From an uncultured delta proteobacterium (lineage in GTDB: Bacteria > Myxococcota_A > Polyangia > Polyangiales > Ga0077539): a DNA stretch of 32,015 bases. Under the pieces are notes generated by a model. That model ran no database searches and was not told the origin of the DNA. It saw only the letters and a list, made by a program, of their open reading frames with translations. Positions 3,011 to 32,015 of this stretch are shown piece after piece. The number at the start of each line of letters is the position of its first letter. Position 1 is the stretch's first letter. The DNA is taken from the NCBI GenBank assembly GCA_903860995.1, contig CAIOSS010000681.1, positions 1 through 32,015 on the forward strand. Reading direction: 5' to 3'. The translations under genes were made by a program, and so were the position numbers.

Positions 3011-3160
3011 CCGAGGCGCACATCGCCGCGTAGCGCAGCGCCGGGTCGAGGGTGACGCCGCCCCCGCGGGCGTCTGTGGGCGGACTCGCCGGGTCAGCGT
3101 CGGTCGTGGTCCAGCGGAGCGGTTCGTCCCGGACGAAGGTGAACCGACCAGGTCGTCGGG
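3011..3160 (-). pseudogene. Gene fragment abutting repeat copy 1
   Basis: Minus-strand open frame ...PGRFTFVRDEPLRWTTTDADPASPPTDARGGGVTLDPALRYAAMCASGQG runs straight into the repeat at 3010; no start codon seen. Confidence 0.35.
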
Positions 3161-6703: not shown

Positions 6704-6828
6704 GTGCATAGGGCGTCCAACGGGGCACCCCGGCCCGGCATGGATTCGCTCGGGTTTACTGAGAATCCATGATCAGCAGGACACCGTCCCGCGAGCGCTG
6801 CAAGGAGCTCCCTGGACGCCGCCTTGGC
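6704..6828 (+). repeat. ~125-bp structured dispersed repeat, copy 2
   Basis: gtgcatagggcgtccaacggggcaccccggcccggcatggattcgctcgggtttactgagaatccatgatcagcaggacaccgtcccgcgagcgctgcaaggagctccctggacgccgccttggc. Confidence 0.92.
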
Positions 6829-6989
6829 GCGTGGCGGAGATCCACGTGCGCCGCTCGGTCGAGGCGGTCTTCGAGCAGAGCGTCGTCCTGCGCGAGATGA
6901 TCGAGGGCGGCCACATCGCCCTCGTGGGCGCGATGTACTCCGTGGAGACCGGCGGCATGGACCCATTCGATCAGAGCGCTCGTGCGTGA
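6829..6989 (+). pseudogene. Beta-carbonic anhydrase C-terminal fragment
   Basis: VAEIHVRRSVEAVFEQSVVLREMIEGGHIALVGAMYSVETGGMDPFDQSARA* matches the NVRRTVE.I.E.S.VLRE.IE.G.I.+VGAMYD+ETG pattern; starts directly after the repeat. Confidence 0.65.
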
Positions 6990-11042: not shown

Positions 11043-11169
11043 GCGCATAGGGCGTCCAATGGGGCACCCCCCGCCCGGCACGGATTCGCTCGGGTTTACA
11101 GAGAACCCATGATCAGCAGGACACCGTCCCGCGAGCGCTGCCAGAAGCGTCCCTGGACGCCGCCTTGGC
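11043..11169 (+). repeat. ~125-bp structured dispersed repeat, copy 3
   Basis: gcgcatagggcgtccaatggggcaccccccgcccggcacggattcgctcgggtttacagagaacccatgatcagcaggacaccgtcccgcgagcgctgccagaagcgtccctggacgccgccttggc. Confidence 0.93.
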
Positions 11170-14077: not shown

Positions 14078-14201
14078 CGCATAGGGCGTTCAATGGGGCA
14101 CCCCCGCCCGGCACGGATTCGCTCGGGTTTACAGAGAACCCATGATCAGCAGGACACCGTCTCGCGAGCGCTGCCAAGAGCTCCCGGGACGCCGCCTTGG
14201 C
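14077..14201 (+). repeat. ~125-bp structured dispersed repeat, copy 4
   Basis: gcgcatagggcgttcaatggggcacccccgcccggcacggattcgctcgggtttacagagaacccatgatcagcaggacaccgtctcgcgagcgctgccaagagctcccgggacgccgccttggc. Confidence 0.93.
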
Positions 14202-14388
14202 GATCCAGACGGCGGTGGGGTTCGTGGGCACCGTCGACTCGCGCACGACCATCACGCCGCGCTTCGCGTCGACCACGCCGGGCGCCGCGGAGACCCGCCG
14301 CGTCGCGCAGAACTGGGTCGATCAGGCGCTGAAGTCATCCGTGTTCCTGCCGACGGTCTCGCTGTCGCTGGGGTACCGGCTCTTCTGA
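14202..14388 (+). pseudogene. C-terminal fragment of a probable outer-membrane/beta-barrel protein
   Basis: AIQTAVGFVGTVDSRTTITPRFASTTPGAAETRRVAQNWVDQALKSSVFLPTVSLSLGYRLF*; C-terminal SLSLGYRLF (terminal Phe) is typical of OMP barrels. No start other than within the repeat. Confidence 0.45.
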
Positions 14389-15269: not shown

Positions 15270-15584
15270 GTGCAGTTTCGGCCGCGAGGCCACAGCATGG
15301 TCGGCGAGATCTCGAGCGGCGACCTCTGCACGGTGGCGGTGCTCGCGGCGGGCGACATCGTCCTGTGCCGCGTGCACGGCAACCAGTACCTGCACCTGGT
15401 GAAGGCGATCCAGGGCGAGCGCTTCCAGATAGGCAACAACCGCGGCGGCATCAACGGCTGGATCACCCGTCGACAGATCTTCGGTCGCCTGCTCGCGGTC
15501 GAGCCGGGACGCGCGCGCGCCGGCTCGCCATCGCGCCTCGCGGCACACCGCGAGGCCTCGGGCGCTTCGCCAAGGCGCGGTTGA
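15270..15584 (+). CDS. S24/S26 (signal-peptidase/LexA-like) family peptidase-like protein
   Basis: FRPRGHSMVGEISSGDLCTVAVLAAGDIVLCRVHGNQYLHLVKAIQGERFQIGNNRGGINGW; RGHSM and GDIVL...KAI motifs. GTG start. Confidence 0.65.
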   Translation: MQFRPRGHSMVGEISSGDLCTVAVLAAGDIVLCRVHGNQYLHLVKAIQGERFQIGNNRGGINGWITRRQIFGRLLAVEPGRARAGSPSRLAAHREASGASPRRG

Positions 15585-15697
15585 ACGAAGCCGCGGAGCC
15601 TCCGGGCGGCCGGCAGTCGTCGATGTGGGAAGAGGGTTGGCCATCGATCCACGGCTGCACCCGCCGCGGGGCAGTCGATGGCGGCCCCCACGGGCCG

Positions 15698-16054
15698 CTA
15701 CCCGAGGCGCTTACCCTCCTCGGTATTCAGCAGGTCCAGCGGGCTGCGCAGCGTCGCGCGACGCGCCTCGGAGAGGTGCGTGTAGCGGGCCGTGCTCTGG
15801 AGCGACCGATGCCCCAACAGGATCTGCACGGTGCGCAGGTCGGTGCCGATCTCCAGCAGATGGGTCGCGAACGCGTGACGCGGGAGGTGGGGATAGACGC
15901 GGAGCTTGAGGCCCGCGCGCTCGACCGCCGCCCGCAGGGAGAGCTTCACCGCCGCGCGCGTCAGCGCATTGCCCCGGGCCGGAACATAGAGACTGGCGAA
16001 CAGCAACTTCCCCTTCGGACGACTCTCTCGCCAGTAGGTGCGGAGCGACTACCT
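15698..16054 (-). pseudogene. Tyrosine recombinase C-terminal remnant
   Basis: [21 protein letters not shown]...[79 protein letters not shown] keeps the C-terminal catalytic motifs; the frame is closed upstream (TAG), so the N-terminus is missing. Confidence 0.8.
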
Positions 16055-16210
16055 TGTCTGCGATTTTCGCCCTGCTACTCGTCATCGGGAGTTCCCGACC
16101 CATCGTGGGAGGAGTTCGCTTGCACCGGGCGATGGGTCACCGTAGGCACAGAGGGTGTTGTGCTGCCCTGAGGGGTCACATCCCTTCGTTTTATCGGAGG
16201 CTAAGGCGCG

Positions 16211-17173
16211 TTGAACTTCTGGCTCGAGCAGAGCGGCCATCGCATTTTCGTCAGCCCTGTGGGCGTGCTCGTCGGCCGCGATGCGTGTTGCGACGTGGTG
16301 CTGTTGGCGCCGCAGATCAGCCGACGGCACGCGCTCCTTCGTGCGACCGACGACGGCCTCGAGATGTTGACCTTCGGACGACACCCGACGCGACTCAACG
16401 GTGACCCCTGCGCTCCCTCGGTCTGGGTGCAGTTCGGCGACGAGATCGACTTCTGCGGACAGGTGTTCAGGGTGGTGCCTGGCGCCGCTCCGAGAGGTTC
16501 AGAGCCCGATCTTTCCTGGGGCATCGAGCGCTGCGCGGGGGTGCTGTTTCCCCTTTCCGAGCAGACTGTTCGCGTCGGCGGATCGGCGAGCGACGACCTC
16601 GTCATCGTCGGCTGGGAGCCCTCGGTGTTTCTCATCCATCGGGTGGCCAACGGCGTCGTGCTCGAGGCCATGAGGGATGGCATCGTCCGCGGGGTACCAC
16701 TGCCCGCCGGGGAGTGCGTGACGCTCGCTTCCGGCGATCGCATCGCATACATGGGGCAATCCCTCAAGGTCATCGCGCTTCCACGCGATCCGACCACGAT
16801 CACCGAAACGATGCTCGGCGCTGACCTCGCCACGGGCGTCGAGCTGTTGTTTCTCCCCATCGGCGGGCGGCTCACCGTGCGCTACGGGTCGCGCGTGTGT
16901 GCGGTGTACCTGCCCGAGCGCCGCTGTGACCTCATCGCGTCGCTCCTGCGTCCGGGGACTAACCTCGCGTGCGGCGATCCGATCCCCGTGGCAGTGCTCG
17001 TCGAGCGCATCTGGCCGGGCGGCAACCAGACCCGCATTGACCTCAACACACTGATCTTTCGTACCCGAAAAGACCTCTTGAGGAGCGAGATCGACGGAGC
17101 CACGCTCATCGAGCGAACGGGCGGTGGCGTGCGCCTTCGACTCGCCGCGGGCGCTCCCGTGGACATCGTGTAG
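16211..17173 (+). CDS. FHA-domain protein with C-terminal OmpR/PhoB-type winged-helix DNA-binding domain
   Basis: VGVLVGRDACCDVVLLAPQISRRHALLRATDDGLEML...HPTRLNG is an FHA signature; C-terminus VLVERIWPGGNQTRIDLNTLIFRTRKDLLRSEIDGATLIERTGGGVRLRL is Trans_reg_C-like. TTG start at 16211. Confidence 0.75.
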   Translation: MNFWLEQSGHRIFVSPVGVLVGRDACCDVVLLAPQISRRHALLRATDDGLEMLTFGRHPTRLNGDPCAPSVWVQFGDEIDFCGQVFRVVPGAAPRGSEPDLSWGIERCAGVLFPLSEQTVRVGGSASDDLVIVGWEPSVFLIHRVANGVVLEAMRDGIVRGVPLPAGECVTLASGDRIAYMGQSLKVIALPRDPTTITETMLGADLATGVELLFLPIGGRLTVRYGSRVCAVYLPERRCDLIASLLRPGTNLACGDPIPVAVLVERIWPGGNQTRIDLNTLIFRTRKDLLRSEIDGATLIERTGGGVRLRLAAGAPVDIV

Positions 17174-17202
17174 AAGCCGTCGGAAGTGCCGGTGCAGCCC
17201 GC

Positions 17203-17221
17203 GGTGATATCGCGGTGACAT
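17203..17221 (-). promoter_or_regulatory. Shared 19-bp motif, copy A: ATGTCACCGCGATATCACC (minus strand)
   Basis: Plus strand GGTGATATCGCGGTGACAT; ends 92 nt before the ATG at 17313. One mismatch to copy C. Confidence 0.75.
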
Positions 17222-17312
17222 AGACCGCGACGAAGTCGCCCGGCTATGTCTTCGATGCCGCCCCGCAGCCGCAGGGGCGCATTCGTCTCCCTCTGCACCC
17301 GAGAACATCACC

Positions 17313-17837
17313 ATGAAGCGCACCGCCCTCCTCCTTGGCACCCTCCTCCTCGGAGCGTGCTCATCCGACAACTCCACGCCCACGACCGCCGACGCGGCAT
17401 CCGCGAACACCGACGCGCCTCCCGGTCGTTGCACCGCGCGGCTGGTTCGACTGCGCACGGGCCCCGACTCGGCGTGCGGCGGCCAGAGCGCCCACTACTG
17501 GCCCATCGGCCTCGCCGCCACCGACTGCCATGGCTGGCGCGCCCTCGACACCGGCGGCCGCTCGCACGACAACTCCGCCAACACGATCCGCTGCAACGCC
17601 GACGGGTCGTTCTCGTTCATGCAGTTTGCGGGCAACCTCAACTGCACGGGCACCGGCACCGTGAAAACCTATCGGCTCAACATGTGCGCGCAGGACACCC
17701 CTCCGTCGCTCTACACCGTGGCCGACGACCTCACCTGCTGCAGCGCCCCCGACAGCGCCGCGTGCACCACGGGCAACCCCTCGGTGAGCGTGGCCGGGGC
17801 GACGATCTACCTCAACGGCACTACCTGCGCGAACTGA
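17313..17837 (+). CDS. Small Cys-rich lipoprotein (paralogous to the gene at 19685-20125)
   Basis: MKRTALLLGTLLLGACSSDNSTP; motif NSANTIRCNADGSFSFMQFAGNLNCTGTGTVKTYRLNMCAQDTPP. Confidence 0.8.
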   Translation: MKRTALLLGTLLLGACSSDNSTPTTADAASANTDAPPGRCTARLVRLRTGPDSACGGQSAHYWPIGLAATDCHGWRALDTGGRSHDNSANTIRCNADGSFSFMQFAGNLNCTGTGTVKTYRLNMCAQDTPPSLYTVADDLTCCSAPDSAACTTGNPSVSVAGATIYLNGTTCAN

Positions 17838-17850
17838 CCACGGGCGTTGT

Positions 17851-19551
17851 TTAGCGAGCGAGCGCGGCCCCGAAGCCAGGGGTCGCGTCGTCGAAGGTGA
17901 CATCGGGCGCAGGGCCCGGACCTCGGCCCAGGCGACCGAAATACACATGCACTCTCCCCGGTTGGGGCGATCGTGGAGAGGTCACCGCGAGGTCGGGAAG
18001 GCCGTCGCCGTTGACGTCTCCCGGCCCCGCGACCGCCGCGCCGAAGGCCACCTCGCCCATCGGCGGCAACGCCACGCCCACAGGCATCTCGAAGCGCGGC
18101 AACTCCGTCTCCGGGAGCGTCGTCGGCGATGACCCCGGCGGGCTCGCGCGACCGAAGAACACCGCGCCGCAGTGGCCCGCGATGAGGCTCGCGACGTCGT
18201 CGAGGCCGTCACCGTTGATGTCACCCAGGGGCGTGGTGGCGGCCTCGAGGCTCATGAGCGCCCCCGCCGGGAGCACGCACGGCAAGGGGTTCGGCTGCGC
18301 GCTCGCCCACCCGCCGACCCCGCGCGTCGCAGGCCCTCGCAGCACGAGCGAACTGCCCGCGGCGAGCCCCCCGAGCAGCAGGTCGGCGACGCCGTCGCCG
18401 TCGATGTCTCCCGCGGGATAGAGCCTGCGCCCGGCGCTCGCGAGCCCGACGCGCGTGGACTTGATCGCCCCGAAGACACCGCTCGGAGATCCTGCAAAGA
18501 CCATCACGAAGCCGCGGCCGGCGTTGGTCGGGTCGCCGGGATCGGTGTAACCCGGTAGTCCTACCGCGAGGTCGGTGTACCCGTCGCCGTCGCGGTCGCC
18601 CGCGCTCGCGAGCGCCATCGTGGGCTCGCGGCTCGACCCCGCCCCCAGCAGCGCGCCCGTCGGCCGCGCGGGCGTCCCCGTCGCAGCGCCGTGAAAGATC
18701 AAAACCCGCGTGTGCGTCGCGGTTTGCGACGACACGGCGATGTCGCCGTAGCCATCGCCGTCGAGGTCGCCCACGCCCGCCGCCGCGGCGCCGAGCACCT
18801 CGTCGGGCTGCGTGGCGGTGAGCGTCACGTGGCGGGTGTAGCGCCCGCTCGCATCGGCAAAGAGCACGTACACCCGCGACGGCAGGTCGGTGACCATCAC
18901 CTCCTGTCGCCCGTCGTCGTCGGTGTCGCCTGCGACGGCGACCGCCTCGGCGAAGCGAGGCCCCGCCCCGTCGGGCGCGAAGGTCACCGCCCGGGTGCCC
19001 GTCCGTGGATCTACGATCACAAAGGCACCGCGCGCCGCGCCGACCGTCGCCGCGGGGAGCGGCGCGCCGACGAGAAGCTCCGTCTGCCCGTCGCCGTCGA
19101 GGTCAGGCAGCGCACGATCGCCCGCGGTGATCGAGCCTGGCGCACGGGCGCTGGGCACTTCGAACCACCGCGGCGTCGTCGCCATCGCGCCGCGCGCGAG
19201 CGACCACCAGTAGCGCCCCGGAGCCATGGGCGTAGGAGCGGTCCACGCGCAGAAGCGCACGCCGCGCACGAAGGGGCCGGTCTCCTCGCGCGCCGCGTCG
19301 CCCGCGGGACAATCCCGCGTGCGGCAGATGCGCAGCGTCGCCGTGCAGCCCTGGTCGTCGATCCACGTGAGCTTCGGTCGCGCCGCGCTGAGCAGGGTGG
19401 CGGTCGGCGGTTGCACTGCCGCGAGGGGCCGCAAAGCAGGTCGCGGCGGTGCGTCGATGGAGGCGTCCGCGGAGGCGGGGCGAAGGGTCCAGCTGTCAGG
19501 TACGCAGCCCAGCACGACCGTCAACAGCACCGGACTCAAGACGACCTTCAC
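17851..19551 (-). CDS. FG-GAP/VCBS-repeat (integrin-like beta-propeller) lipoprotein
   Basis: MKVVLSPVLLTVVLGCVPDSW; repeated DLDGDGQTELLVGAP, DLDGDGYGDIAVSS, DRDGDGYTDLAVGLPG, DIDGDGVADLLLGG, DINGDGLDDVASL, DVNGDGLPDLAVTSP. Confidence 0.92.
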   Translation of the reverse strand: MKVVLSPVLLTVVLGCVPDSWTLRPASADASIDAPPRPALRPLAAVQPPTATLLSAARPKLTWIDDQGCTATLRICRTRDCPAGDAAREETGPFVRGVRFCAWTAPTPMAPGRYWWSLARGAMATTPRWFEVPSARAPGSITAGDRALPDLDGDGQTELLVGAPLPAATVGAARGAFVIVDPRTGTRAVTFAPDGAGPRFAEAVAVAGDTDDDGRQEVMVTDLPSRVYVLFADASGRYTRHVTLTATQPDEVLGAAAAGVGDLDGDGYGDIAVSSQTATHTRVLIFHGAATGTPARPTGALLGAGSSREPTMALASAGDRDGDGYTDLAVGLPGYTDPGDPTNAGRGFVMVFAGSPSGVFGAIKSTRVGLASAGRRLYPAGDIDGDGVADLLLGGLAAGSSLVLRGPATRGVGGWASAQPNPLPCVLPAGALMSLEAATTPLGDINGDGLDDVASLIAGHCGAVFFGRASPPGSSPTTLPETELPRFEMPVGVALPPMGEVAFGAAVAGPGDVNGDGLPDLAVTSPRSPQPGRVHVYFGRLGRGPGPAPDVTFDDATPGFGAALAR

Positions 19552-19684
19552 TGCGCGGCACCTTCTCAGGTCGGTGCGAGAACTTCCACTGGCAACACCA
19601 CCCGGTGCGAGCGGTCACTCTCCCGCCGGGGCTGCTGGGCATCGGATCACCGCCCAGGGCGCCCTTCCGCGCAGGTCCGCGGGG

Positions 19685-20125
19685 CTACATGCACCCGCTG
19701 AAGTCCGTGATGCGGCCCCAGGTGCCCGGCGGCGTGTCCTCCGTACAGTCGGTGAGGGTGTACGCCTTGACGACACCGGCGGGGTTCGTGCCGCCGCTGC
19801 ACGTCAGCGAGGTCCACTGGGTGTACGTGAACGTGCTCGCGCCGCAGGTGAAGCGGCTGCTCGAGTTTTCGTGGCCTGCTCCAGTGGTGCTCGAATGGCA
19901 ACAGGTGCTCCCGTAGTGAACCGGGAGCCGCTGCGAGGCGACCATGGTCCCCGTGCAGGAAGCGTTGCGCCAGCGACCGATGGTGACCCAGCGCTCGAGC
20001 GCGGCGTCGCAGGTCCCCGCGGTGCCGCTGTCAGCTCCGCCGGTGACGCTGTCTGTAGAACATCCCGCCAGCTGCGAGGCCGATAGAAAAAGGCATACAG
20101 AGATCGCGCGGGAGTGGGTATTCAT
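19685..20125 (-). CDS. Small Cys-rich lipoprotein (paralogous to 17313-17837)
   Basis: MNTHSRAISVCLFLSASQLAGCSTDS; motif NSSSRFTCGASTFTYTQWTSLTCSGGTNPAGVVKAYTLTDCTEDTPP. Confidence 0.8.
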   Translation of the reverse strand: MNTHSRAISVCLFLSASQLAGCSTDSVTGGADSGTAGTCDAALERWVTIGRWRNASCTGTMVASQRLPVHYGSTCCHSSTTGAGHENSSSRFTCGASTFTYTQWTSLTCSGGTNPAGVVKAYTLTDCTEDTPPGTWGRITDFSGCM

Positions 20126-20173
20126 GACTTCTTCCTGGTGCCAACGGCACCCGTCGAAAGATGCTGACTGTAA

Positions 20174-20186
20174 TGTATCCGATACA
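20174..20186. promoter_or_regulatory. 13-bp perfect palindrome TGTATC-C-GATACA
   Basis: Lies ~49 nt upstream of the start of the 20125 (-) gene, in the 105-bp intergenic gap. Confidence 0.45.
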
Positions 20187-20230
20187 CCTTGAATGGCCTG
20201 TACCGAGAACCTCCTGGCACTCGCCCGCCG

Positions 20231-23200
20231 CTACCGGACCACGGCAGCGCCGAACTCGTCACTCACGGCGCTGCCGCTGCCGAGCGTGGCCGACACCGAC
20301 GACGTGGGAAAGCCCGTCGGGCTCGACATGTACAGGTACGCGCGCGACCGACCCGGGGCTCCCACCAGGATGTCTGCATAGTTGTCTCCATTGACATCGC
20401 CTACGCCTCCTACGCTGGCGCCATAGTCGACGTCCTGCTCGCTGACCTCATGGGTCCACCATGCAGTCTCAGAGATGCCACTCGGCATTCCGCGGTAGAT
20501 GTTCACCCGTCCCCCTGTCCGGATCCACTCAGGCGCCGAGAAAGTCCGCGTGTCCTTGGTTCCCACCACAATGTCAGCATAACCGTCTGCGTCGAGATCC
20601 CCGGCTCCTGCCACAAATGACCCATGCTCATACAGAGACGTCCCTCCCTGGTCTATCATACTCTGAGGATAGGACAATAGGCCGGAAGTCCCACCTAGAT
20701 ATAAACTAAAATAGGGAATGTTGTAGCCAATAGTAGCATAAGCGCTCATCAGGACATCTGCGTAGCCATCGCCGTTGACGTCGCCGGCTCCGGCCACCGA
20801 ATAGCCGAAAAAATCAGATGCACCGCAGTATCTGTTGGGGGAGAACTGCAGGCCTGTCATGCTTCCAAGATAGAGGACAACTCTTCCGGAATTGCCGCGC
20901 CCGGTACCACAATCATCTAGATATGTGCCGATCAAGATATCGTCGAAGCCGTCTCCGTTGACGTCTCCCGCCCCGGCCACCGAGAGTCCGAAACCGAGGT
21001 AATCCTGGCTCAGGCGGTACCCGGCGGTATTCGGAAGCCCCGTCGCGCTCCCCACGTAGATGTTGGCGACCTGAGCCGCAGAACGGCCAACAATGATGTC
21101 CGCGTAGCCGTCACCGTTGACGTCGCCCGCGCTTGCGACGCTGTCGCCCGTGGTGATCGTCGTGGCAGGGCTCGCTGGCAGGGTTCCGCTTCTTCCGAGA
21201 TAGATGAGTGTTTGGCTAGTGGCCAGTACCGCAAGGTCGCCATAGCCGTCGCCGTTGACATCGCCCGCGCTGGCCACCGAAGAGCCAAAGCGAGAGAGCC
21301 CCGTAGGTGGGTGGAGGGTGACCGAGGGAGTTGTCGAGATGCCTGACGCGCTGCCAAGGTACACCGTGACGCGCCCCCCTCCCGCGTAGCCAGGCGCGCC
21401 CACCGCCACGTCGGAGTAGCCGTCGCCGTTGACGTCGAGCGTGGTCCCGCCGCTGGTGTTCACGGGTGCGCTGCGGTGACCCACCCGAAACCACCACGCG
21501 GGCGAGTAGCCGGTGCTGAAGCGACCCGTGTTGGTGCGCCCGCGCAGACGCCACCAGTGGATCCCTGGTGTGAGGGTGAGTCCCACGGTGACCGTGCCGC
21601 CCTCGGCGTCCTGGCTCCATTCCACGTTGCCGCAGGTTCGCGTGGAGCAGACCTGAACGCGCGCAAGGTCAATGCCGCGAGGCATCGCCCACCGCAGAAG
21701 CGGTGTTTGCGAGCTTACCGTCGCCATCGCGAGCGGCCTGATCGCCCGCGGCGTGGGGATCTGCGAGCAGCCGTTGGCAGGATTGCCATCCAGGTAGTCG
21801 TATCCCGAAGAGCAGGTCGTACTGGCATTGACGCAAGTCCCTGCCGTGCAGACCTGATCGGCGAGGCAGGTGTTGCCGCAGGTCCCGCAGTTGTATGGGT
21901 CTAGAGAGAGGTTACGGCACGTCCCTGCGCAACCCGTGGTGCCCGCCGCCGAGCACGACACTGCACATGCTCCCCCCTGGCACACCCGGCCCGCGGGGCA
22001 CACCACGCCGCACCCGCCGCAGTGGTTCACGTCGTTCACCAGGTCGCGACACACCCCCGTGCAGGTCGCCATGCCGCTCCCGGTACAGGCCGCGCACGCG
22101 CCGTTCGTGCAACTCTGATCCGTCGGGCACACCCGACCGCACGCGCCGCAGTTGGAGCGATCCGTGAGGAGGTTCACCTCGCAGCCGTTGGTGCCCGTCG
22201 CGTCACAGTTGGCGTAGCCCGCGGAGCAGGTTCCGCCGGAGCAAACGCCGATCCGGCAAGCGGCTGTGGCGTGCGCGGAGGCAGGGCACACATTTCCGCA
22301 GGCACCGCAGTGTTGAGTGTGGGTTTCGAGCCGCACTTCGCAGCCGTTGGCCGCGTCGCCGTCGCAGTCGGCGTAGCCTGTACGGCAGATCGCAAAGGAG
22401 CGCAGGACCTCTGCGTTGGGGGGGGTTGCAGCCCCGCGGTACACCGTCGCGCGCCGTGCAGTGCCCGCCGAAGTGCTCTGGTCGAAGAGCACGAAGTCGG
22501 TGTACCCGTCGCCGTTGACGTCGCCGAGCGCATCCCCGCTGCGAAACTCTGCAGTTGTGGCCTGGAAAGAGAAAAGGTAAGTGCCGGACGGTCGTCCTGG
22601 CGCGATGGAGACAATGTTGCTCCGGACCCCGCCGAGGTCGGCAAAGCCGTCACGGTTTACGTCCCCCGCGGAGAAGCCCTGAGGTCCGTTGTAGAAGTCG
22701 TGTGGGGAACTCCCGGGAATTCCGGTCGCAGACCCGTACCAGGTTCGCGTTTCGCCGCGGTCGGAGGGGGCAACGTCGCAGTAGCCGTCTCCGTTGAAGT
22801 CCGCCATGGCCACCGTTTGGCCAAAGAAGTCTTCTGTGGTGGAGAAGCTGAGCGTGCGATGGACCGTCGCACTGATCCCGGCGGAGCCGCCGAGATAGAT
22901 CCTGACCATCCCATAGGCATGATTGCGCGGGACGCCGACGCTGAGGTCTGCGTAGCCGTCGCCGTTGACATCGCCCGCGGCCAGTCCGGCGCCGAAGTTG
23001 TCGTCATTGGTATCAGAGGAGGTCCCGTTCAGGGTGCGCGCAGGGCTGGTCGAGAGGCCCGTGGCCGAGCCGTGATAGATCCGAACCGTTCCGCTCAAGG
23101 TCGTGCCGCGACCCGACACGGCCACGTCGGCGTAGCCGTCGCGGTTGGCGTCGCCGATGCCCTGCACCTGCTGGCCGTAGTGCATGGTGGTGTCCGAGAG

Positions 23201-24883
23201 AACATCGCCCTCTACGGTCCATGTCGGCGTCGTGGCGAGACCCGTGGCGCTCCCGAGATAGACCTCGGCCCGCCCCCGCTCTCCATTGGAGTCCGGCGCG
23301 CCCACGATCAGGTCGCCGAAGCCGTCACCGTTGGTGTCTCCCGCGCTCGCCACCCACGAGCCGAATTTGTCTCGCAGCCCAGCGCTCGTCAGCGTTGTGG
23401 TCGGCGTCGCAGCGAGGCCCCCGGAGCCTCCGAGATACACTTGCACGACGCCGCGATCGTAGGCGTACTCCTCGGCCCCGATGGCAAGATCGCCGTACCC
23501 GTCACCGTTGACGTCGAGCGTCGCCCCGTTGCTGCTATCGACCGCGAGGGAGGTTCGGGCCCCGACACGGAAGTTCCACACGGGGGAGTAGCGCGTGCCG
23601 ACGCGCCCGGAGGCGGTACGCCCCGCGAGGCGCCAGAAGTGAATTCCGGTCGTGAGCGGCGCGGGAACCGTCGAGCTCCCCGATGTCACCGAGAGCGTCT
23701 GCTCCACCGACGCGCAGGCCCGGTCGGCGCAGATCTGCACCTGTGCGCCCGTCGTGAGGGATGCCAGCAGCCAGGTGAGGCGTGGGGCCTGCCGCGTGGT
23801 GGTCGCGGTCGAGAGCGGCGCGACGGGCCTCGGCGGAAGGATTCGCTCGCAGCCGTTGGCTTCGTTGCCGTCGAGGTTCTCGTAACCGGTGGGACAGGTC
23901 ACGGCAGGGCCGACACAAACCACGCCCATGCAGGTCTGACCGTCCCAACAGGCACGGTCGCAGGCGCCGCAGTTGAGGCGGTCGTTGTAGGCGTACAGTT
24001 CGCAGCCGTTGGCCGCGTCGCCGTCGCAATTGGCCCAGTAATTTAAGCATTGGCCGACGCCGCAACGGCCTCCGGAGCACCCGGCGGTGGCATGCGGAGG
24101 GACGGGGCACACGATGCCGCACGCGCCGCAGTTGGAGAGACCCGTGAGGAGGCTCACCTCGCAGCCGTTCCGATTGCTTTGGTCGCAGTCGGCCCAGTCG
24201 TCCTGGCAGCCCGTCCATATGCAGTCATAGAAACATGACAGCCCCCAATCCACGTGGCTGCGGTCCGTGCAGATTGCGTCGCAGTAGTGGCTCCGCGTGC
24301 CGCAGTCGACGCCGGGGGTTTCGCAGGAGACGCAGGCGCCTGCGAGGCATCCCTGAGCCGCGGGGCACACGTTGCCGCAGGCGCCGCAGTGCGAGGCGCT
24401 CCTGGCCGTGTCGATGCATCGCCCGCCGCACGCCGCGAGAGGTGACGGACACGTCGCACGACAAGCGCCCGCGACGCAGAAGGGCTCGGTGGCACTGCAC
24501 GAGACGCCACATGCAGCGCAGTTCGCGGGGTCGCCGGTGAGGTCGACGCAGGTTCCGCCGCAGAGCGTACGGTCGCTCGGGCACGCGCAGGCTCCCGCGG
24601 AGCACGTCTGCGTGGCCGGGCACGCCGCCTCGCATGCGCCGCAGTGGAGCGCATCGCGCGTGAGGTCGGTGCAGACGCCCTCGCAGCGCACCTGACCGGG
24701 GCCACATGCGGCAGCCTCGGCCGAAAGGGCGTCGAAGGTGACATCCACAAGCACCGCGTCGTCGGGCGCAACGCCCTCGGCGGTGGCGTCCATCGGCGCG
24801 AGGCCCTCGCTGGCACAACCGAGGGCCAGAACGGCGGCGACGGTCAAGCGCCAGAGCGAGAAAGAAGATGCGGATCGTTGCAT
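20231..24883 (-). CDS. Giant (~1550 aa) lipoprotein with Cys-rich modules and two tandem FG-GAP beta-propeller blocks
   Basis: MQRSASSFSLWRLTVAAVLALGCASEG; repeated HCGACG..C modules and many DVNGDGYxDxxVG repeats; the Cys-rich/FN-like/FG-GAP module occurs twice (TCPTGYENLDGNEANGCE... and TCSSGYDYLDGNPANGCS...). Confidence 0.92.
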   Translation of the reverse strand: MQRSASSFSLWRLTVAAVLALGCASEGLAPMDATAEGVAPDDAVLVDVTFDALSAEAAACGPGQVRCEGVCTDLTRDALHCGACEAACPATQTCSAGACACPSDRTLCGGTCVDLTGDPANCAACGVSCSATEPFCVAGACRATCPSPLAACGGRCIDTARSASHCGACGNVCPAAQGCLAGACVSCETPGVDCGTRSHYCDAICTDRSHVDWGLSCFYDCIWTGCQDDWADCDQSNRNGCEVSLLTGLSNCGACGIVCPVPPHATAGCSGGRCGVGQCLNYWANCDGDAANGCELYAYNDRLNCGACDRACWDGQTCMGVVCVGPAVTCPTGYENLDGNEANGCERILPPRPVAPLSTATTTRQAPRLTWLLASLTTGAQVQICADRACASVEQTLSVTSGSSTVPAPLTTGIHFWRLAGRTASGRVGTRYSPVWNFRVGARTSLAVDSSNGATLDVNGDGYGDLAIGAEEYAYDRGVVQVYLGGSGGLAATPTTTLTSAGLRDKFGSWVASAGDTNGDGFGDLIVGAPDSNGERGRAEVYLGSATGLATTPTWTVEGDVLSDTTMHYGQQVQGIGDANRDGYADVAVSGRGTTLSGTVRIYHGSATGLSTSPARTLNGTSSDTNDDNFGAGLAAGDVNGDGYADLSVGVPRNHAYGMVRIYLGGSAGISATVHRTLSFSTTEDFFGQTVAMADFNGDGYCDVAPSDRGETRTWYGSATGIPGSSPHDFYNGPQGFSAGDVNRDGFADLGGVRSNIVSIAPGRPSGTYLFSFQATTAEFRSGDALGDVNGDGYTDFVLFDQSTSAGTARRATVYRGAATPPNAEVLRSFAICRTGYADCDGDAANGCEVRLETHTQHCGACGNVCPASAHATAACRIGVCSGGTCSAGYANCDATGTNGCEVNLLTDRSNCGACGRVCPTDQSCTNGACAACTGSGMATCTGVCRDLVNDVNHCGGCGVVCPAGRVCQGGACAVSCSAAGTTGCAGTCRNLSLDPYNCGTCGNTCLADQVCTAGTCVNASTTCSSGYDYLDGNPANGCSQIPTPRAIRPLAMATVSSQTPLLRWAMPRGIDLARVQVCSTRTCGNVEWSQDAEGGTVTVGLTLTPGIHWWRLRGRTNTGRFSTGYSPAWWFRVGHRSAPVNTSGGTTLDVNGDGYSDVAVGAPGYAGGGRVTVYLGSASGISTTPSVTLHPPTGLSRFGSSVASAGDVNGDGYGDLAVLATSQTLIYLGRSGTLPASPATTITTGDSVASAGDVNGDGYADIIVGRSAAQVANIYVGSATGLPNTAGYRLSQDYLGFGLSVAGAGDVNGDGFDDILIGTYLDDCGTGRGNSGRVVLYLGSMTGLQFSPNRYCGASDFFGYSVAGAGDVNGDGYADVLMSAYATIGYNIPYFSLYLGGTSGLLSYPQSMIDQGGTSLYEHGSFVAGAGDLDADGYADIVVGTKDTRTFSAPEWIRTGGRVNIYRGMPSGISETAWWTHEVSEQDVDYGASVGGVGDVNGDNYADILVGAPGRSRAYLYMSSPTGFPTSSVSATLGSGSAVSDEFGAAVVR

Positions 24884-24987
24884 GAGCACCTCGGTGAGGC
24901 CCTGGTTGCGGTCCGCGGCAAAACCCTGTTGGGGTGCCGCGCCACGGAGAGGCTGAGCGAGGTAAGCCAGCGCCGTCGCCGACGGCA

Positions 24988-25006
24988 ATGTCGCGCCGAT
25001 ATCACC
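24988..25006 (+). promoter_or_regulatory. Shared 19-bp motif, copy B: ATGTCGCGCCGATATCACC
   Basis: Intergenic; begins ~105 nt upstream of the ATG (24883) of the giant FG-GAP gene, on the strand opposite to the gene. Two mismatches to copy C. Confidence 0.65.
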
Positions 25007-25018
25007 GGCGCGGTGCCA

Positions 25019-26983
25019 TCACGGCGCGGGTGCCACGCCCGCCTGGCGGGCAGCGCGCACGTCCACAGTGTTGAAGTACTCCGCCGTCAGCGGGATCGAC
25101 GCGAGCTGCTGGCGGCCGGCGTTGAAGGCGACCTCGAAGGGCTGCGACTCGAGCAGCGTGGTTTCGAGAGGCCAGAGCACCGCGGCGCCCGCGCTCGCGG
25201 GGCGAGAGCGCAGCGCGACGAGGGCGTGGGTGTTGGTGTAGACGAGCACGGGATCGAGGCCGAGGCGCTCGAGGAGGCTCGCGAAGAGAAACGCGCCCTC
25301 GATGCAGTTGCCGGTGCGGGTGGCGAGCACCTCCGCGGGCGTGCGGAGGTGTTGCGCGCCGGCGTAGAAGCTGGCCGAGATGTCGGTGTAGGTGATGCCC
25401 CGTGTGCGAAGGGCGTCGTACACGGCGCGCAGGGCGTCTTCGGCGACGTCTTCACGCGAGTTCGAGCGCGTCCAGGCGACACGTACAGCGGCGGAACCGG
25501 GCGCGTTGAGCACGAGCACGTACCAGCCGCCGCTCGTCGAGGTGAAGCTCTGCGTCGCGCCCTGCTCGCTCGCGGGCCACGCCTGCGCGGCGACGCCCGA
25601 GCGATCGCTCTGCCATGCCGCGTAGGCGCTCGCCCGAAAGAGCGCCACGTCCACGGAGCGTGCGCCGTCGATCGCCCCGACCTCGAGCGCCAGCGTTTCG
25701 CCGGGCTCGAGATAGACGTTTTCGTAGGCGTAGCTCCCCGGCGCAATGGCATGGCTTCGGGGGCGGCGCGGCCGCTCGTAGCCGTGCAGTGCGCCGGGCC
25801 ACGCACTTCTCGCTTCGACAGCGGCCTGGAGGGAGACCACCGAGGGGTCGTCGGGGCGCACGAAGACCGCGCTGAGCGCGTCCATCGCCGGCTGCGAGAC
25901 ATGGTCGCTCGGGGGCCCCCACACGATGTCGCCCGCGGGCAGCAGGTCGAGCGCGAGGTAATCGCTGAGCGTAAACCCCGCGCCGATCATCTCGACGCTG
26001 TAGGTCACCTGCCCGCGCGTCGCCTCGGTGAGCGCCCGGACACGCGCGGCGGAGAAGGTCGGGCTCACGCACGCGCGGGTGGTTCCCGTGGCGGGCACGG
26101 CGACGCTACGCACGGCCGCCGCGTCGGTGTACCCTGGCACATCGACGGTGATGCGGGCAGTGTGGGGCGCGCCGTCGAGGCTCGCGAGGGTGAAGCACGC
26201 GACCTCCATCTCGATCGGGTGTCGCACGGTGGCGCTGCCGATGAGGTGCGAGAGGTACAACGGGAGCGAGCGCGAGCCGAGCGCGGGCGGACGCACGACA
26301 GGGTGCGTCACGCTGACGTTGAAGGGGAGGGCGGCGCTCAGGCAGTTGCGACGGAAGCACATGCTCCCGGAAGGGCAGGCGCGGCCGCAGGCCCCGCAGT
26401 GGGCGGGGTCCGACGCGGTGAGCACGCAGGCCCCGCCGCACGACGTCTGCGGGGCTTCGCAGCTCGGCGCACAGCGCCCCGTGAGGCACGTTTCACCCGC
26501 GGCGCAGGCCCGGCCACACGCGCCGCAGTGGGCCTGATCGCTCGTGGTGTCGACGCAGCGGTCCGCGCAGAACACCCGCGCCTCTGTGCAGCCGCCGCCG
26601 CACGAGCCGTCGTTGCACCACTGTCCCGCGCCGCACGCGCGACCGCAGGCCCCGCAGTGCGCGGGGTCGCTCTGGAGGTTCACGCAGCGACCGCAGTGGG
26701 TGAGCCCTTCGGCGCAGTGGGCGTCGGCGATCTCGCCCAGCACGGCAGGGCTGCCGTCGGACGGTACCGAGGCGTCGAGGCTGCCGTCACACCGACACGC
26801 CAGGAGCGCCGTGCTCGTCGCGTTGCACACCTGCGTACCCACACGACCATTCGTGCATGTACACGGACGTTCGACATCGGCCGGGCAGGCCGAGGGCGCG
26901 GGGTCGGAGCATCCGAGGGTGGCGCAGAACCACAGCCCGAGCGCCAGGGAGGCGAGCCGAAAGGCGAAGGTGGCGGTTTTCAT
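25019..26983 (-). CDS. Transglutaminase-like-domain Cys-rich lipoprotein, catalytic residues apparently present
   Basis: MKTATFAFRLASLALGLWFCATLGCSDPA; three HCGACGRAC modules; C-terminal TRTGNCIEGAFLFASLLERLGLDPVLVYTNTHALVALRSR...WPLETTLL. Confidence 0.8.
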   Translation of the reverse strand: MKTATFAFRLASLALGLWFCATLGCSDPAPSACPADVERPCTCTNGRVGTQVCNATSTALLACRCDGSLDASVPSDGSPAVLGEIADAHCAEGLTHCGRCVNLQSDPAHCGACGRACGAGQWCNDGSCGGGCTEARVFCADRCVDTTSDQAHCGACGRACAAGETCLTGRCAPSCEAPQTSCGGACVLTASDPAHCGACGRACPSGSMCFRRNCLSAALPFNVSVTHPVVRPPALGSRSLPLYLSHLIGSATVRHPIEMEVACFTLASLDGAPHTARITVDVPGYTDAAAVRSVAVPATGTTRACVSPTFSAARVRALTEATRGQVTYSVEMIGAGFTLSDYLALDLLPAGDIVWGPPSDHVSQPAMDALSAVFVRPDDPSVVSLQAAVEARSAWPGALHGYERPRRPRSHAIAPGSYAYENVYLEPGETLALEVGAIDGARSVDVALFRASAYAAWQSDRSGVAAQAWPASEQGATQSFTSTSGGWYVLVLNAPGSAAVRVAWTRSNSREDVAEDALRAVYDALRTRGITYTDISASFYAGAQHLRTPAEVLATRTGNCIEGAFLFASLLERLGLDPVLVYTNTHALVALRSRPASAGAAVLWPLETTLLESQPFEVAFNAGRQQLASIPLTAEYFNTVDVRAARQAGVAPAP

Positions 26984-29076
26984 CGGGGTAGTGGGGCGAT
27001 GCCGTGCGCGCGCGCGGTCGCGATGTCCTGTGCGTGGAAGTAGGGTGCCCGGCTGCGGGCGTTGGCGACGGCACGAAGCCCGTCGTCGAACGCCGCGTCG
27101 AAGCCGCCGGGCCTGAGGTTCGAGAGGTCGAGGGCCCACACCAGGGGCTCCGAGGCCGCGCCCAGTACGAAGCGCGAACGCACGCCGAGGTAGACCTGTT
27201 CGTCGGTGTAGAGCAGCACGGGCTCCATGCCGACGAGTTCGACGAGGCTCGCGGCGAGCATCGCGACATCGACGGTAGAGCCGCTTCGCGTGCTGAGCAC
27301 CTCGACGCTGCGGCGCATCTGCGTGAGACCGTGGAAGGTCGCCGCGGTGACGGGCGTGACTGCGACACCCCGCGCGACGAGCGTGTCGTACACCGCGCGG
27401 AGGAGGTCTTCGACGACGTCTTCGCGGGTGTTGGAGCGCGACCAACGGACCTCGACAGGCGTCGCGGAGCCCGCCGAGGCTGTAAGCGCGAGCACGTACC
27501 ACCCGGGCGTCCCAGGACGGCGCGTGAGCGCGGCGCCGACCCCGACGCCCGACCAGCGCGCGCTCGCGGCGGCACCGTGGTCGGTGCGCCACGCACCGTA
27601 CTGCGCGGGTGTCAGGAGCGTGAGATCGACCGCGTCCCCGGTGGCCGACAGGATCTGGATGTCGAGCGCCTCTTCGCCCTCGAGGTAGAGGTTCTCGTAG
27701 GCATAGCCCTCGATGGGCACGGTGGCAGAGCGGGTCCAGGTGCCGCGATCGTAGGCCCGCAGGCCAAAGCCGCCGGGAAAGACGCTCAGCGCCTCGACGG
27801 TGCGAAACAGCCCCTCGATCGGTCGCGCGTGCGGCATGACCCAGACGGCGCTGAGTTCGTCCATCGCTTCGCGGCCCACCGCGGCGAAGGGAGGATCCCA
27901 GGTGAAGACATTGCCCGGCAGCAGCGTGGCGGACTGCACGGCGCGCGTCATGGCCGCGGCGGACCCCTGCGCGTCGCGCACGGAGGCCGCGAGCGTGATG
28001 GGCATCGGGGCCCGCAGTTGCGCGAGGTCGGCCACGGCGAAGACCGGGCTCATGCAGGGCGAGGCGTTGACCCGCGGGTTGAGAAAGAACGTGCGCTGCA
28101 CGGCGGCGGAGTACGGCGTCGCTTCGATGGCGAGGCCGACGGCGCGGGGCATCGAGGCCGCCGAGGCCGCGAGCGAGAAGCACACGGACGCGGGCACCAA
28201 GGCGCGGCTGGTGACCTCCGCGTCGCCGTACAGGTGGGCCAGAAACGTCGGAAAATACGGCGAACCACCGGGGTTTGGCAGCAGTCCCGAGCCGAACCGC
28301 ATACTCGCCGCGAAGGGCAGCGCGGCCGCGACGCAGGCGCCGCCCACGCAGTCTTGCCCCGCCGCGCAGGCGTTGTCGCAGCGCCCGCAGTGCCCGAGCG
28401 TTCCGCTCACATCGATGCACGCCGCGGCCGACGCGCACCATGACTGCCCCGGAGCACAGCCGGGCACGCACGCTCCGCCCGCGCAGGTGAGCCCTGCGCC
28501 GCAGTGCTCGCCGCAGATGCCGCAGTGGGCGATGTCCGTAGCCGGATCGACGCAGTGGTTGTCGCAGACGGTGCGCGGCGCGACGCAGCCCCGCGCACAC
28601 GCGCCATCGAGACAGTAGTCTCCCTCGCTGCACGCATGGCCGCAGGCGCCGCAGTGGAGCGGGTCGGCGGTCACATCAACGCACCGACCGCAGTGGGTGC
28701 GCCCCGAGGCGCACGAGGTCGCGGTCGCCGTGCGGGCGTCGCGGGGCGGCGCATCGAGGATGGCCATGCTCGCATCGGCGACGCGCGCATCGCCGTCAGC
28801 AACGGTCGCGTCGGAGCGGCCCCCGCCGTCGCCGGTGCTCGCGTCGGAGATCGATGCGTCCTCCGCGGTGCGGGGCTTACACGTGCACGGGCCGAGGCCA
28901 TCGCCCGAGGGCGCGCAGACCGAAGCCCCCACGGCCCCGCCATCGCAATGGCAAGCCGTCGATTCTCCCGGGATGCACACCCTTTCCCCGTTGCACGCCG
29001 AGCCGCAGATGCTGGATGTCAATACAACAATAACAGCCGCCCAAAAACGTCGCGCCACCTGCGAATGCACGTCCAT
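26980..29076 (-). CDS. Transglutaminase-like-domain Cys-rich lipoprotein paralogue lacking the catalytic Cys and His
   Basis: MDVHSQVARRFWAAVIVVLTSSICGSACNGERV; same architecture as the 25019 gene. Aligned region is STRSGSTVDVAMLAASLVELVGMEPVLLYTDEQVYLGVRSR...WALDLSNL. Stop overlaps the start of the 26983 (-) gene, so operonic. Confidence 0.8.
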   Translation of the reverse strand: MDVHSQVARRFWAAVIVVLTSSICGSACNGERVCIPGESTACHCDGGAVGASVCAPSGDGLGPCTCKPRTAEDASISDASTGDGGGRSDATVADGDARVADASMAILDAPPRDARTATATSCASGRTHCGRCVDVTADPLHCGACGHACSEGDYCLDGACARGCVAPRTVCDNHCVDPATDIAHCGICGEHCGAGLTCAGGACVPGCAPGQSWCASAAACIDVSGTLGHCGRCDNACAAGQDCVGGACVAAALPFAASMRFGSGLLPNPGGSPYFPTFLAHLYGDAEVTSRALVPASVCFSLAASAASMPRAVGLAIEATPYSAAVQRTFFLNPRVNASPCMSPVFAVADLAQLRAPMPITLAASVRDAQGSAAAMTRAVQSATLLPGNVFTWDPPFAAVGREAMDELSAVWVMPHARPIEGLFRTVEALSVFPGGFGLRAYDRGTWTRSATVPIEGYAYENLYLEGEEALDIQILSATGDAVDLTLLTPAQYGAWRTDHGAAASARWSGVGVGAALTRRPGTPGWYVLALTASAGSATPVEVRWSRSNTREDVVEDLLRAVYDTLVARGVAVTPVTAATFHGLTQMRRSVEVLSTRSGSTVDVAMLAASLVELVGMEPVLLYTDEQVYLGVRSRFVLGAASEPLVWALDLSNLRPGGFDAAFDDGLRAVANARSRAPYFHAQDIATARAHGIAPLPR

Positions 29077-29185
29077 GTCTTCCTATCTGGGCTGACACAT
29101 CGATGCGGCCTCGAGGTCGCTCCGCCGTGGCGCAACCGTCGATGGAGCGCCCGTCGATTCAACGCGAGCCGTGGCGCGTGGCGCA

Positions 29186-29204
29186 ATGTCACCCCGATAT
29201 CACC
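29186..29204 (+). promoter_or_regulatory. Shared 19-bp motif, copy C: ATGTCACCCCGATATCACC
   Basis: Between the divergent genes at 29076 (-) and 29265 (+); ~110 nt upstream of the 29076 ATG and ~60 nt upstream of the kinase ATG. Confidence 0.75.
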
Positions 29205-29264
29205 CGCTCCCCTTCGACGAGCGGACGCGTGAAGGCTACGTTCCTAACGTGGAGGTGGTTTAGG

Positions 29265-30623
29265 ATGCCGCGCGTGGTGGAGCGCTGCGCCGACGACGTG
29301 TTTCAACTCTCGGGTCATCTGCTCGAGGGGCGGTACGCGGTGCATGGAGTCGTCGCCCGCGGCGGTTCGGGCGTTGTCTACAAAGCCACGCGCCTCGACC
29401 TTGGGGTGCCCGTGGCGCTCAAGGTGCTGCACATTCCGCCGCGGCTTCGGGGCGCTTCCGAGGATGCGCTCGTTGAGCGCTTTCGCGTCGAGGCGCGCAT
29501 CCTCGCGGGGCTGCGTCACCATGCCATCGTGCGGGTATACGAGCTCGGCGCGCTCGCCCACGCAGTGGCCCCCAACGGGGGCGTGTGGATGGCCCTCGAG
29601 TGGCTCGACGGCGTCACCCTCGACCGCGATCTCGCCGCTCGCGATGGCCTCGGGCGCTCGCCGCGCGCAGTGTTGGCGCTCCTCGCGCCGGTCTTCGATG
29701 CACTCGCATGCGTGCATGCGCAAGGCATCGCGCACCGCGATGTCAAGCCCGCCAACCTGATGCTCGCGGCCACAGCGCGCGGTGACATCGATCTGCGCGT
29801 GCTCGATTTTGGCATCGCAAAAGTGATGCTCCCCGATGAGTGCGCGGGCACGGGAGTCACCGACACCCGGAGCGATCACGCATCGTTCTCGCTGAGCTAT
29901 TCCGCACCCGAGCAGGTGGCACGCGCGCGGACGGGCCCATGGACCGACGTCCACGCACTCGGCCTGCTCGTGATCGAACTGCTGCTGGGCACCCGCGCCT
30001 ACGCGAGCACGGACAGTTTTTCTCTCTACGGCGAGGTCATGTCTCCCGCGCGCCCCACGACGGCCCGCGGCGGCCGCGATCTGGGCCCGTGGGAGCCGGT
30101 GCTCCGCAAGGCGCTGGCGCTGCAACCAGGCGATCGGTACGCCGCGGCGGGCGCGATGCACGAGGCCCTCGCCGCCACCGTAGACGAAGCCGAGGCGCGC
30201 TGGGCGCGTCGCCTGACGCTCGACGCCGCCCCGCACGGCGGTACGACAGAGGGTTTCGAGGCTCGACGCCGCGGTCCCAGCGCTCGCATCGTCGCGGCGC
30301 TCGCCATCGTGGCGCTCGTGCCGATGGGCTGGCGCGTGCCTCGCGCCCCAGAAAGGCTCGCGACGCCCCGCGTGAGCGTCGCGCCATCCAACGCATACGC
30401 AGCGGTCGCCGATGGGCAAGGCCCCGTGGAGCCCGCCGCTCCAGCGGCTCACGGCCTCGCGACGGGCGGGGCATCCATGGAGCGTGCGGGTGTCGTCCGG
30501 CCCTCGGCGTCGCGTGCTGCGCGTCCCAGAGGCCGACGCACCGCACCCTCGCGCGGGGCGACGACGACGCCGCGGAGCACACCCTCCGTCGAAGTCGTTG
30601 AGCCGGATATCGAGATCGACTGA
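29265..30623 (+). CDS. PknB-like Ser/Thr protein kinase with single C-terminal TM segment
   Basis: LLEGRYAVHGVVARGGSGVVYKATRLDLGVPVALKVLHIP...IAHRDVKPANLMLAATARGDIDLRVLDFGIAKVML...SLSYSAPEQVARARTGPWTDVHALG; TM IVAALAIVALVPMGW. Confidence 0.93.
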   Translation: MPRVVERCADDVFQLSGHLLEGRYAVHGVVARGGSGVVYKATRLDLGVPVALKVLHIPPRLRGASEDALVERFRVEARILAGLRHHAIVRVYELGALAHAVAPNGGVWMALEWLDGVTLDRDLAARDGLGRSPRAVLALLAPVFDALACVHAQGIAHRDVKPANLMLAATARGDIDLRVLDFGIAKVMLPDECAGTGVTDTRSDHASFSLSYSAPEQVARARTGPWTDVHALGLLVIELLLGTRAYASTDSFSLYGEVMSPARPTTARGGRDLGPWEPVLRKALALQPGDRYAAAGAMHEALAATVDEAEARWARRLTLDAAPHGGTTEGFEARRRGPSARIVAALAIVALVPMGWRVPRAPERLATPRVSVAPSNAYAAVADGQGPVEPAAPAAHGLATGGASMERAGVVRPSASRAARPRGRRTAPSRGATTTPRSTPSVEVVEPDIEID

Positions 30624-30624
30624 G

Positions 30625-31482
30625 ATGCGCGAGCCTCTGCGGATTGCGCTCGGGTTCTGGCTTGGGCTCGCTCCCGCTGCGCTCGGCGCCAGGTCGTCGT
30701 ACGCGCAGGAGGGGAGCAACGAGCGCGTGCGCCGCGAACTCATCCTGCGTGCGCAGCGCGCGCGCGGAGCAGGCGATCACCGCGAGGCCCTCGACGCCGC
30801 CACGCGGTCGATGGAGATGCGCAGCTCGCCGTCGATCGAGTATTTCGTCGCGCGGGAACACGACGCCCTCGGCCATCGCGACGAGGCGCACCGACTGGCT
30901 ACGCGCTGCGTACGTGCGGCCGAGACCGAACCCGCCCTGCGCGACCGCGACCTCTTGCTGCGCGCCTGTGCGTCCATCGTCGCGCGCACGGCTCCACCCG
31001 TGGTCGCGGTTCCGGAGCCCGTTCCATGGCCGCGGCCCCCGGTGGGAGCCCCCGCACCTGCGGTCTTCCCAGCCCTCGCGCAGAGCCGTGACCGATCCCC
31101 GACGCTCGCCCCGATGCCTCGACCGGGAGGTGCCCCGCGGCCCCCCGTCGCGGGTCCGTGGATACTGGGTGGCGCAGGCCTCGCGAGCGTCGTGGCATCG
31201 GGCGTACTCTTCGTTGTTGCCGCCGAGGCGCAGCGTGAGCGCGATGCGCTCTGTCCTGCAGCGCCGCTGCACTGTGATCCCGCGGCCGTGGCCTTCGACG
31301 ATCGGTACCGCGCCGCGCTCGTTGCGGGCGACGTGGCGAGCATCGTCGGTGGGGCCGCCCTGCTGACGGGTGCGCTCTGGTGGACCGTGCCCAGGGTGGG
31401 CCATCGCGCAGCCGCGCCGGTGCTCGTGACGGTGCAACGAGGCGGTGGAGCGTTTGCGCTGGGGGCGCGCATCGCGTGGTAG
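30625..31482 (+). CDS. TPR-like periplasmic/membrane protein with two C-terminal TM helices, coupled to the kinase
   Basis: Signal peptide MREPLRIALGFWLGLAPAALGARSSYAQEGS; RAQRARGAGDHREALDAATRSMEMRSSPSIEYFVAREHDALGHRDEA; ATG 1 nt after the kinase stop. Confidence 0.75.
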   Translation: MREPLRIALGFWLGLAPAALGARSSYAQEGSNERVRRELILRAQRARGAGDHREALDAATRSMEMRSSPSIEYFVAREHDALGHRDEAHRLATRCVRAAETEPALRDRDLLLRACASIVARTAPPVVAVPEPVPWPRPPVGAPAPAVFPALAQSRDRSPTLAPMPRPGGAPRPPVAGPWILGGAGLASVVASGVLFVVAAEAQRERDALCPAAPLHCDPAAVAFDDRYRAALVAGDVASIVGGAALLTGALWWTVPRVGHRAAAPVLVTVQRGGGAFALGARIAW

Positions 31483-31639
31483 GGCGACGGGTCCGGATGT
31501 GCGGCGTGCACCACGCTCGACGCGCTCCCCAGCGCGACTCGCGGTGCCCGCGTAGGGGCTACTGAAAGGTCGCTCGTCCATCCTGCGGGGGTACGCGTAC
31601 ACCTGCTCGGCGCCGACAAAGGATGCCTTGGCGCAGGCC

Positions 31640-32015
31640 ACCCAGTCGGTTCGGCAGCGCGCCGCGTGGATGGGCCGCAGCGTCGTGCGCGTCTACGAGA
31701 ACATCGCCAGCGAGGCCAACTGGACCACCCTCCGCCTCGTGGGTCGCGGCCCGGGCGGCGCCAACCACGCGGCCATCGGGGCCGCAGGTGCGGGTCACCA
31801 CGGGCTCGGTCACCCAGCGCCGCGACGTGCAGGGCAACTGGGGCCTCGCGGGCCTCGGCACCGAGCTCCCGGTGCACGTGGGCCTCGGAAGCAACTGCAC
31901 CCTCGACCGCATCGAGGTGCGCTGGCCCGACGCCGCCCGCACGGTCGAGACCTTCACCGACGTGCGGGCCCACTACGGCCTCGAGATCGTCCAGGGCGCC
32001 GGGCGGGTGCAGTAC
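31640..32015 (+). pseudogene. CRTAC1/UnbV (ASPIC) domain protein fragment, frameshifted and running off the window
   Basis: RSVVRVYENIASEANWTTLRLVGRGPGGANHAAIGA then another frame QVRVTTGSVTQRRDVQGNWGLAGLGTELPVHVGLGSNCTLDRIEVRWPDAARTVETFTDVRAHYGLEIVQGAGRVQY. Frame break at ~31778-31786. Confidence 0.6.

Follow-up and report, generated by a model that had tools for sequence, protein, structure and literature searches.

Tandem 11-bp repeats upstream of lipoprotein genes as predicted operators of an FHA–winged-helix protein in a Myxococcota genomic island

Three near-identical 19-bp sequences in a 32,015-nt stretch of DNA (the window) from a freshwater myxobacterium-like genome are predicted to be operators of the FHA–winged-helix protein encoded at 16211-17173, a reading to which we assign a probability of about 0.7. 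The sites, designated A, B and C, lie in a conserved island (16049-31677) that holds the regulator gene, six lipoprotein genes, a Ser/Thr kinase gene and a gene for a TPR-like secreted protein. The features are as follows, the operator copies being predicted from sequence.

16211..17173, plus strand: regulator gene, TTG start; FHA domain, second FHA-like domain and C-terminal OmpR-type winged helix
17203..17221, plus strand: operator copy A, GGTGATATCGCGGTGACAT in gene orientation
17313..17837, plus strand: small lipoprotein under site A, a 31% identical paralogue of 19685-20125
17851..19551, minus strand: FG-GAP repeat lipoprotein, last gene of the putative site-B operon
19685..20125, minus strand: small lipoprotein, member of the putative site-B operon
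20231..24883, minus strand: 1550-aa FG-GAP and STIG1 Cys-rich lipoprotein, first gene after site B
24988..25006, minus strand: operator copy B, GGTGATATCGGCGCGACAT in gene orientation
25019..26983, minus strand: Cys-rich (STIG1 / MXAN_6577-like) lipoprotein with a transglutaminase-like region, putative site-C operon
26980..29076, minus strand: Cys-rich (STIG1) lipoprotein, first gene after site C
29186..29204, minus strand: operator copy C, GGTGATATCGGGGTGACAT in gene orientation
29265..30623, plus strand: Ser/Thr kinase of the Hanks type; a probable transmembrane segment follows the kinase domain
30565..31482, plus strand: ORF encoding a secreted TPR-like protein, which probably starts at about 30646

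Exact matching placed the three 19-mers at the intergenic positions that the earlier note had given for them. With up to 3 mismatches allowed, A, B and C were the sole matches in the window, and 100 shuffles of the window gave a mean of 0.06 matches, none of the 100 reaching three. Copy A is 29 nt past the stop codon of the regulator gene, which does adjoin it as had been noted, and 91 nt 5′ of the lipoprotein ATG at 17313. Copies B and C are 104 nt 5′ of the ATG at 24883 (the giant FG-GAP/STIG1 lipoprotein) and 109 nt 5′ of the lipoprotein ATG at 29076, respectively. The described spacing of roughly 90–110 nt was thereby confirmed, as was the shared orientation relative to the lipoprotein gene, which is identical in all three cases. 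The ATG of the divergent kinase gene (29265) is 60 nt downstream of copy C. Copy B falls within a longer TTG-start reading (24988) of its ORF; it is the ATG at 24883 that yields a lipoprotein signal peptide. No site is present in the promoter of the FHA gene itself.

Read in gene orientation, the site is GGTGATATCGSSGYGACAT, a tandem direct repeat with an 11-bp period. The gene-strand repeat can be written GGTGATA-TCGC-GGTGACA, and the second half is weaker in copy B (CGCGACA). The two half-sites with 11-bp periodicity proposed previously are thus real. The likening of the layout to OmpR/PhoB-type sites stands as far as the tandem 11-bp repeat is concerned; the comparison with the TGTCA repeats of the Pho box does not, and the element is better described as a tandem TGAYATCG repeat on the other strand. 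PhoB recognizes a heptamer of the CTGTCAT class upstream of phosphate genes. A Pho-box reading was rejected on sequence, the consensus here being TGANATCGSSNTGANATCG and the downstream genes encoding lipoproteins, kinases and eCIS-core proteins.

Genome-wide, the motif is not randomly placed. The 7.04-Mb assembly G000 (82% complete) contains three good matches to the 19-mer, all of them in the island and within a span of 12 kb; a fourth match has 3 mismatches, and a reversed-pattern control also gives one such match. Genome G004 has exactly three sites, all at syntenic places. Exact conservation of the 19-mers in G004 is weak evidence by itself because the whole island is 97% identical.

Site A would head 17313-17837. 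Site B probably heads an operon running from 24883 to 17851, in which 24883-20231 is followed by 20125-19685 and 19551-17851 after gaps of 105 and 133 nt, neither of which has a site of its own. Site C is expected to head 29076-26980 together with 26983-25019, which overlaps the stop of its upstream gene. With A, B and C at the head of these putative units, all six island lipoprotein genes would stand behind a site. The kinase gene 29265-30623 is a probable further target of site C. As a separate observation, 25019-26983 and 26980-29076 form an MXAN_6577-like tandem, and the C-terminal transglutaminase-like part weakly matches an anti-phage ProA model.

The proposed binder is a protein of 320 aa whose FHA domain was detected with an E-value of 3.4e-9. 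The FHA residues of the window protein are canonical (GR..S..H..NG): G22, R23, S37 and R38 are invariant in A1, and H40 and N64-G65 are present in the window protein. An AlphaFold model shows two FHA-like beta domains, the second of them non-canonical, followed by a C-terminal winged helix at about residues 206-320. Modelled alone with AF2, the winged helix has a pLDDT of 94, and its best Foldseek matches are CadC, SaeR, TcpP/ToxR and EmbR. EmbR is also the top solved-structure relative by profile, and by fold it is among the best for both domains. Across 18 family members, Pfam assigned FHA to 18 and Trans_reg_C to 7. The homologues, the AF2 model and Foldseek thus agree with the earlier description of an OmpR-type winged helix on the FHA protein. 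No BTAD was matched by Pfam, and in the model nothing follows the winged helix and only beta FHA folds precede it. A REC domain was found by Pfam in 0/18 members.

Of 184 genomes in the order, 13 carry the family, as do 27 of 379 sampled from the phylum. The relatives that bear a name come from Myxococcota or Deltaproteobacteria MAGs; Kofleriaceae, Sandaracinaceae and Nannocystaceae are among the records. Relatives of the regulator elsewhere in Myxococcota are about 40% identical and usually lie beside a kinase. Likewise, relatives of the window kinase (47-55% identical) adjoin FHA–winged-helix genes in other genomes, so that the pairing recurs, and homologues of the 30565..31482 product adjoin kinase/FHA genes in relatives.

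The motif is retained in promoter regions of paralogous FHA–winged-helix loci, in line with the footprinting in relatives that had been suggested. Genes in other genomes were called with a gene finder trained on the window genes; the calls are approximate and the gene starts are predicted. At a paralogous locus of G004 (L062), TTGTCATCGCGGTGAAATC lies about 46 nt 5′ of the kinase gene adjoining an FHA–winged-helix gene, and TTGTCATCGACGTGAAATC lies upstream of a neighboring lipoprotein gene with RCC1 repeats. This pair was the useful exception in a de novo pair search of other FHA loci, which mostly returned low-complexity or repeat noise. A scan matrix built from the three window sites only was then run over all other FHA–winged-helix loci. 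Its best matches are intergenic and lie 5′ of the adjoining kinase (L107, L060, L062) or 5′ of the gene divergent from FHA (L072/L073, L058); at L058, upstream of a redoxin-like gene, three repeats are in register. At a score of at least 14, 14 matches were seen and about 4 were predicted by a Markov background, so the weaker matrix matches need caution. Matches at L105 (7415) and L063 (6984) were not counted as operators, nor was an exact match in G462, which lies inside a called gene.

Counts of the degenerate core TGANATCGSSNTGANAT point in the same direction as the matrix scan. Exact matches number 8 in the 13 family-bearing genomes and 11 in the 171 without the family. When 22 further family-bearing genomes were added to the 13 of the order, the exact core was present in 10 of 35, compared with 11 of 171 without the family (Fisher p 0.0005). 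At up to 1 mismatch, 14 of 37 matches in the 13 genomes fall in regulator loci. With the window island and its G004 copy removed, 8 of 31 such matches fall in FHA loci, which make up 0.28% of the DNA (p 3e-14); after merging of overlapping or orthologous matches, the independent ones in FHA loci are 5 of 28 (again 0.28% of DNA, p ~2e-8). In G005, the gene beside the linked site has a 42%-identical paralogue that is preceded, again in the same orientation, by an unlinked exact match. In the 25 collected sites, the two positions following the second half, which lay outside the search pattern, hold C in 20 and G in 22, as in the first repeat, so that the second unit is the full TGANATCG.

No convincing site was seen at L066-L070 (the G001-G003 sub-clade), L074, L075, L109 or L110. 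For such FHA–winged-helix loci, either the specificity must differ or the operator–regulator link is partial. Separately, a variant tandem repeat with TGTGATCG units and an 11-bp period occurs upstream of two genes at L071 (3321 and 3877, G005:C122), about 4-5 kb from another FHA–winged-helix paralogue; it may be that paralogue's own version of the operator.

Sites are more numerous in Kofleriaceae. At up to 1 mismatch, G255 has 10 core matches and G428 has 7, compared with about 2 in most genomes. By our own gene calls, all 19 matches in G255, G428 and G437 fall between genes, and for most of them a gene in matching orientation begins 33-110 nt downstream. These genes include those for four eCIS-core-domain (PF13699; DUF4157) proteins, those for Cys-rich and other lipoproteins, and two LuxR-type HTH genes. 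The core of G255:C21:84996 is identical to that of window site C. Among the G255/G428 sites (L210, L216-L220, L188, L209, L223-L226), 11 of 13 pair one TGATATC half with one TGACATC half. None of the seven G428 sites is near either of its two FHA–winged-helix genes, and an FHA–winged-helix protein is a less certain candidate as binder of the Kofleriaceae sites. The earlier suggestion that the motif is the operator of the FHA protein is thus supported as a prediction. The local regulon proposed with it would fit the sites of G000 and G004; the scattered sites in Kofleriaceae do not fit it.

Alternatively, the sites could be true operators of some other winged-helix protein; an OmpR-family response regulator encoded elsewhere is one example. 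The entire OmpR/PhoB/SARP class typically binds tandem 11-bp heptamer repeats (PMC5930380), the G428 sites are not close to FHA genes, and one exact core match each is present in 11 of the 171 genomes of the order that lack the family. Nevertheless, these scattered matches are near the chance rate, whereas clustering at FHA–winged-helix loci holds across families. Moreover, the G000 and G004 sites are confined to the island that encodes the FHA–winged-helix regulator, and no second DNA-binding gene was seen there. Another binder is considered unlikely.

A promoter element, such as the paired blocks recognized by an alternative or ECF sigma factor, would account for the fixed orientation and the distance of 33-110 nt upstream of starts. 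The blocks are, however, near-identical direct repeats 11 bp apart, as opposed to the usual -35/-10 spacer of 16-19 bp; L058 has three blocks in register, and either orientation is possible beside FHA genes. This explanation was rejected for its geometry and is very improbable. Coincidence, or descent from a duplicated promoter segment or a dispersed repeat, is refuted by the counts despite the abundance of dispersed repeats in the genome: three matches were observed for 0.06 expected, the same motif recurs at diverged loci, and similarity among A, B and C ends at the site edges, their unlike flanks indicating that no single duplicated promoter gave rise to them.

With the FHA–winged-helix protein as the preferred binder, two or more regulator molecules would probably occupy adjacent heptamers (TGAYATC, 4-nt spacer, TGAYATC) on one DNA face, by analogy with SARP operators, in which heptamer repeats with 4-nt spacers are bound by at least two monomers on one face (PMC5930380). 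Contact with DNA would be made through the OmpR-type wing and recognition helix. The membrane Ser/Thr kinase 29265-30623 is envisaged to sense an outside signal and to make phosphothreonine on itself, the regulator or a partner. The canonical FHA domain would read this mark, altering DNA binding; that it reads phosphothreonine made by the partner kinase is probable by analogy with EmbR–PknH, the review precedent for an FHA regulator with a partner kinase (PMC4601284). This phospho-control step is hypothetical since the precedent is disputed in vivo (PMC9239209); its basis here is the recurrent kinase neighbor. The six lipoprotein genes would thereby be expressed in a coordinated way, possibly along with the kinase gene, activation being more likely than repression.

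EmbR/PknH of Mycobacterium tuberculosis resembles the proposed system in combining, within a single factor, an OmpR-type winged helix with an FHA domain that reads phosphothreonine, in having a membrane Ser/Thr kinase partner (here by gene association) and in its link to cell-envelope genes. The order of domains in EmbR is wHTH-BTAD-FHA, whereas the window regulator has FHA, FHA-like and wHTH, with no BTAD and with the second, FHA-like domain non-canonical; targets and phylum also differ. The SARP regulators PimR and AfsR share the OmpR-type winged helix and the heptamer direct repeats with an 11-bp unit in two or three copies. Their heptamer is CGGCAAG as opposed to TGAYATC, and the window regulator has FHA as its effector part, with no BTAD found. 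The winged helix is N-terminal in the SARP/EmbR family and C-terminal here. PhoB/OmpR proteins share the winged-helix fold, and their sites are likewise tandem repeats of roughly 11 bp; unlike them, the window regulator belongs to a family without a receiver domain and would thus not use an aspartate phosphorelay.

More tentatively, one-step systems might operate across Myxococcota, running from a membrane Ser/Thr kinase through an FHA–winged-helix factor to a tandem TGAYATCG operator and controlling a cell-surface or contact arsenal. That arsenal would comprise Cys-rich and FG-GAP lipoproteins here, and eCIS-core (DUF4157) proteins and lipoproteins in Kofleriaceae. Many Myxococcota Ser/Thr kinases and FHA proteins have mostly unknown outputs, and linking a predicted operator to a cognate regulator and kinase provides a testable kinase-to-promoter path with an architecture different from that of EmbR. 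For eCIS-associated proteins, the sites in Kofleriaceae would provide a candidate control switch. No description of the architecture or of the motif was found in the open-access literature that the search covered.

The 97% identity of the island (16049-31677) to G004 is set against a G000 rpoB that is 90.8% identical to that of G004 and 96.3% to that of G002, whose FHA–winged-helix proteins are only 43% identical. The DNA beyond the end of the island in G004 has no match in G000. Either the island moved recently between lineages or the contig was mis-binned; whichever applies, G004 independently shows the genome-wide uniqueness of the sites.

A dispersed repeat of ~124 nt with inverted ends (AGGGCGTCCA ... 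TGGACGCC) occurs in the window at 2888-3011, 6706-6829, 11046-11169 and 14079-14202, with many more copies in G000 and some in G004. Candidate identities are a MITE/REP element and an attC-like site. A second repeat of ~120 nt lies at 15547-15678, near the left edge of the island, with about 30 listed copies in G004 and several in G000. Also at this left edge, where synteny begins at 16049, positions 15698-16006 encode a C-terminal tyrosine recombinase fragment (XerC / integron-integrase-like) that looks truncated.
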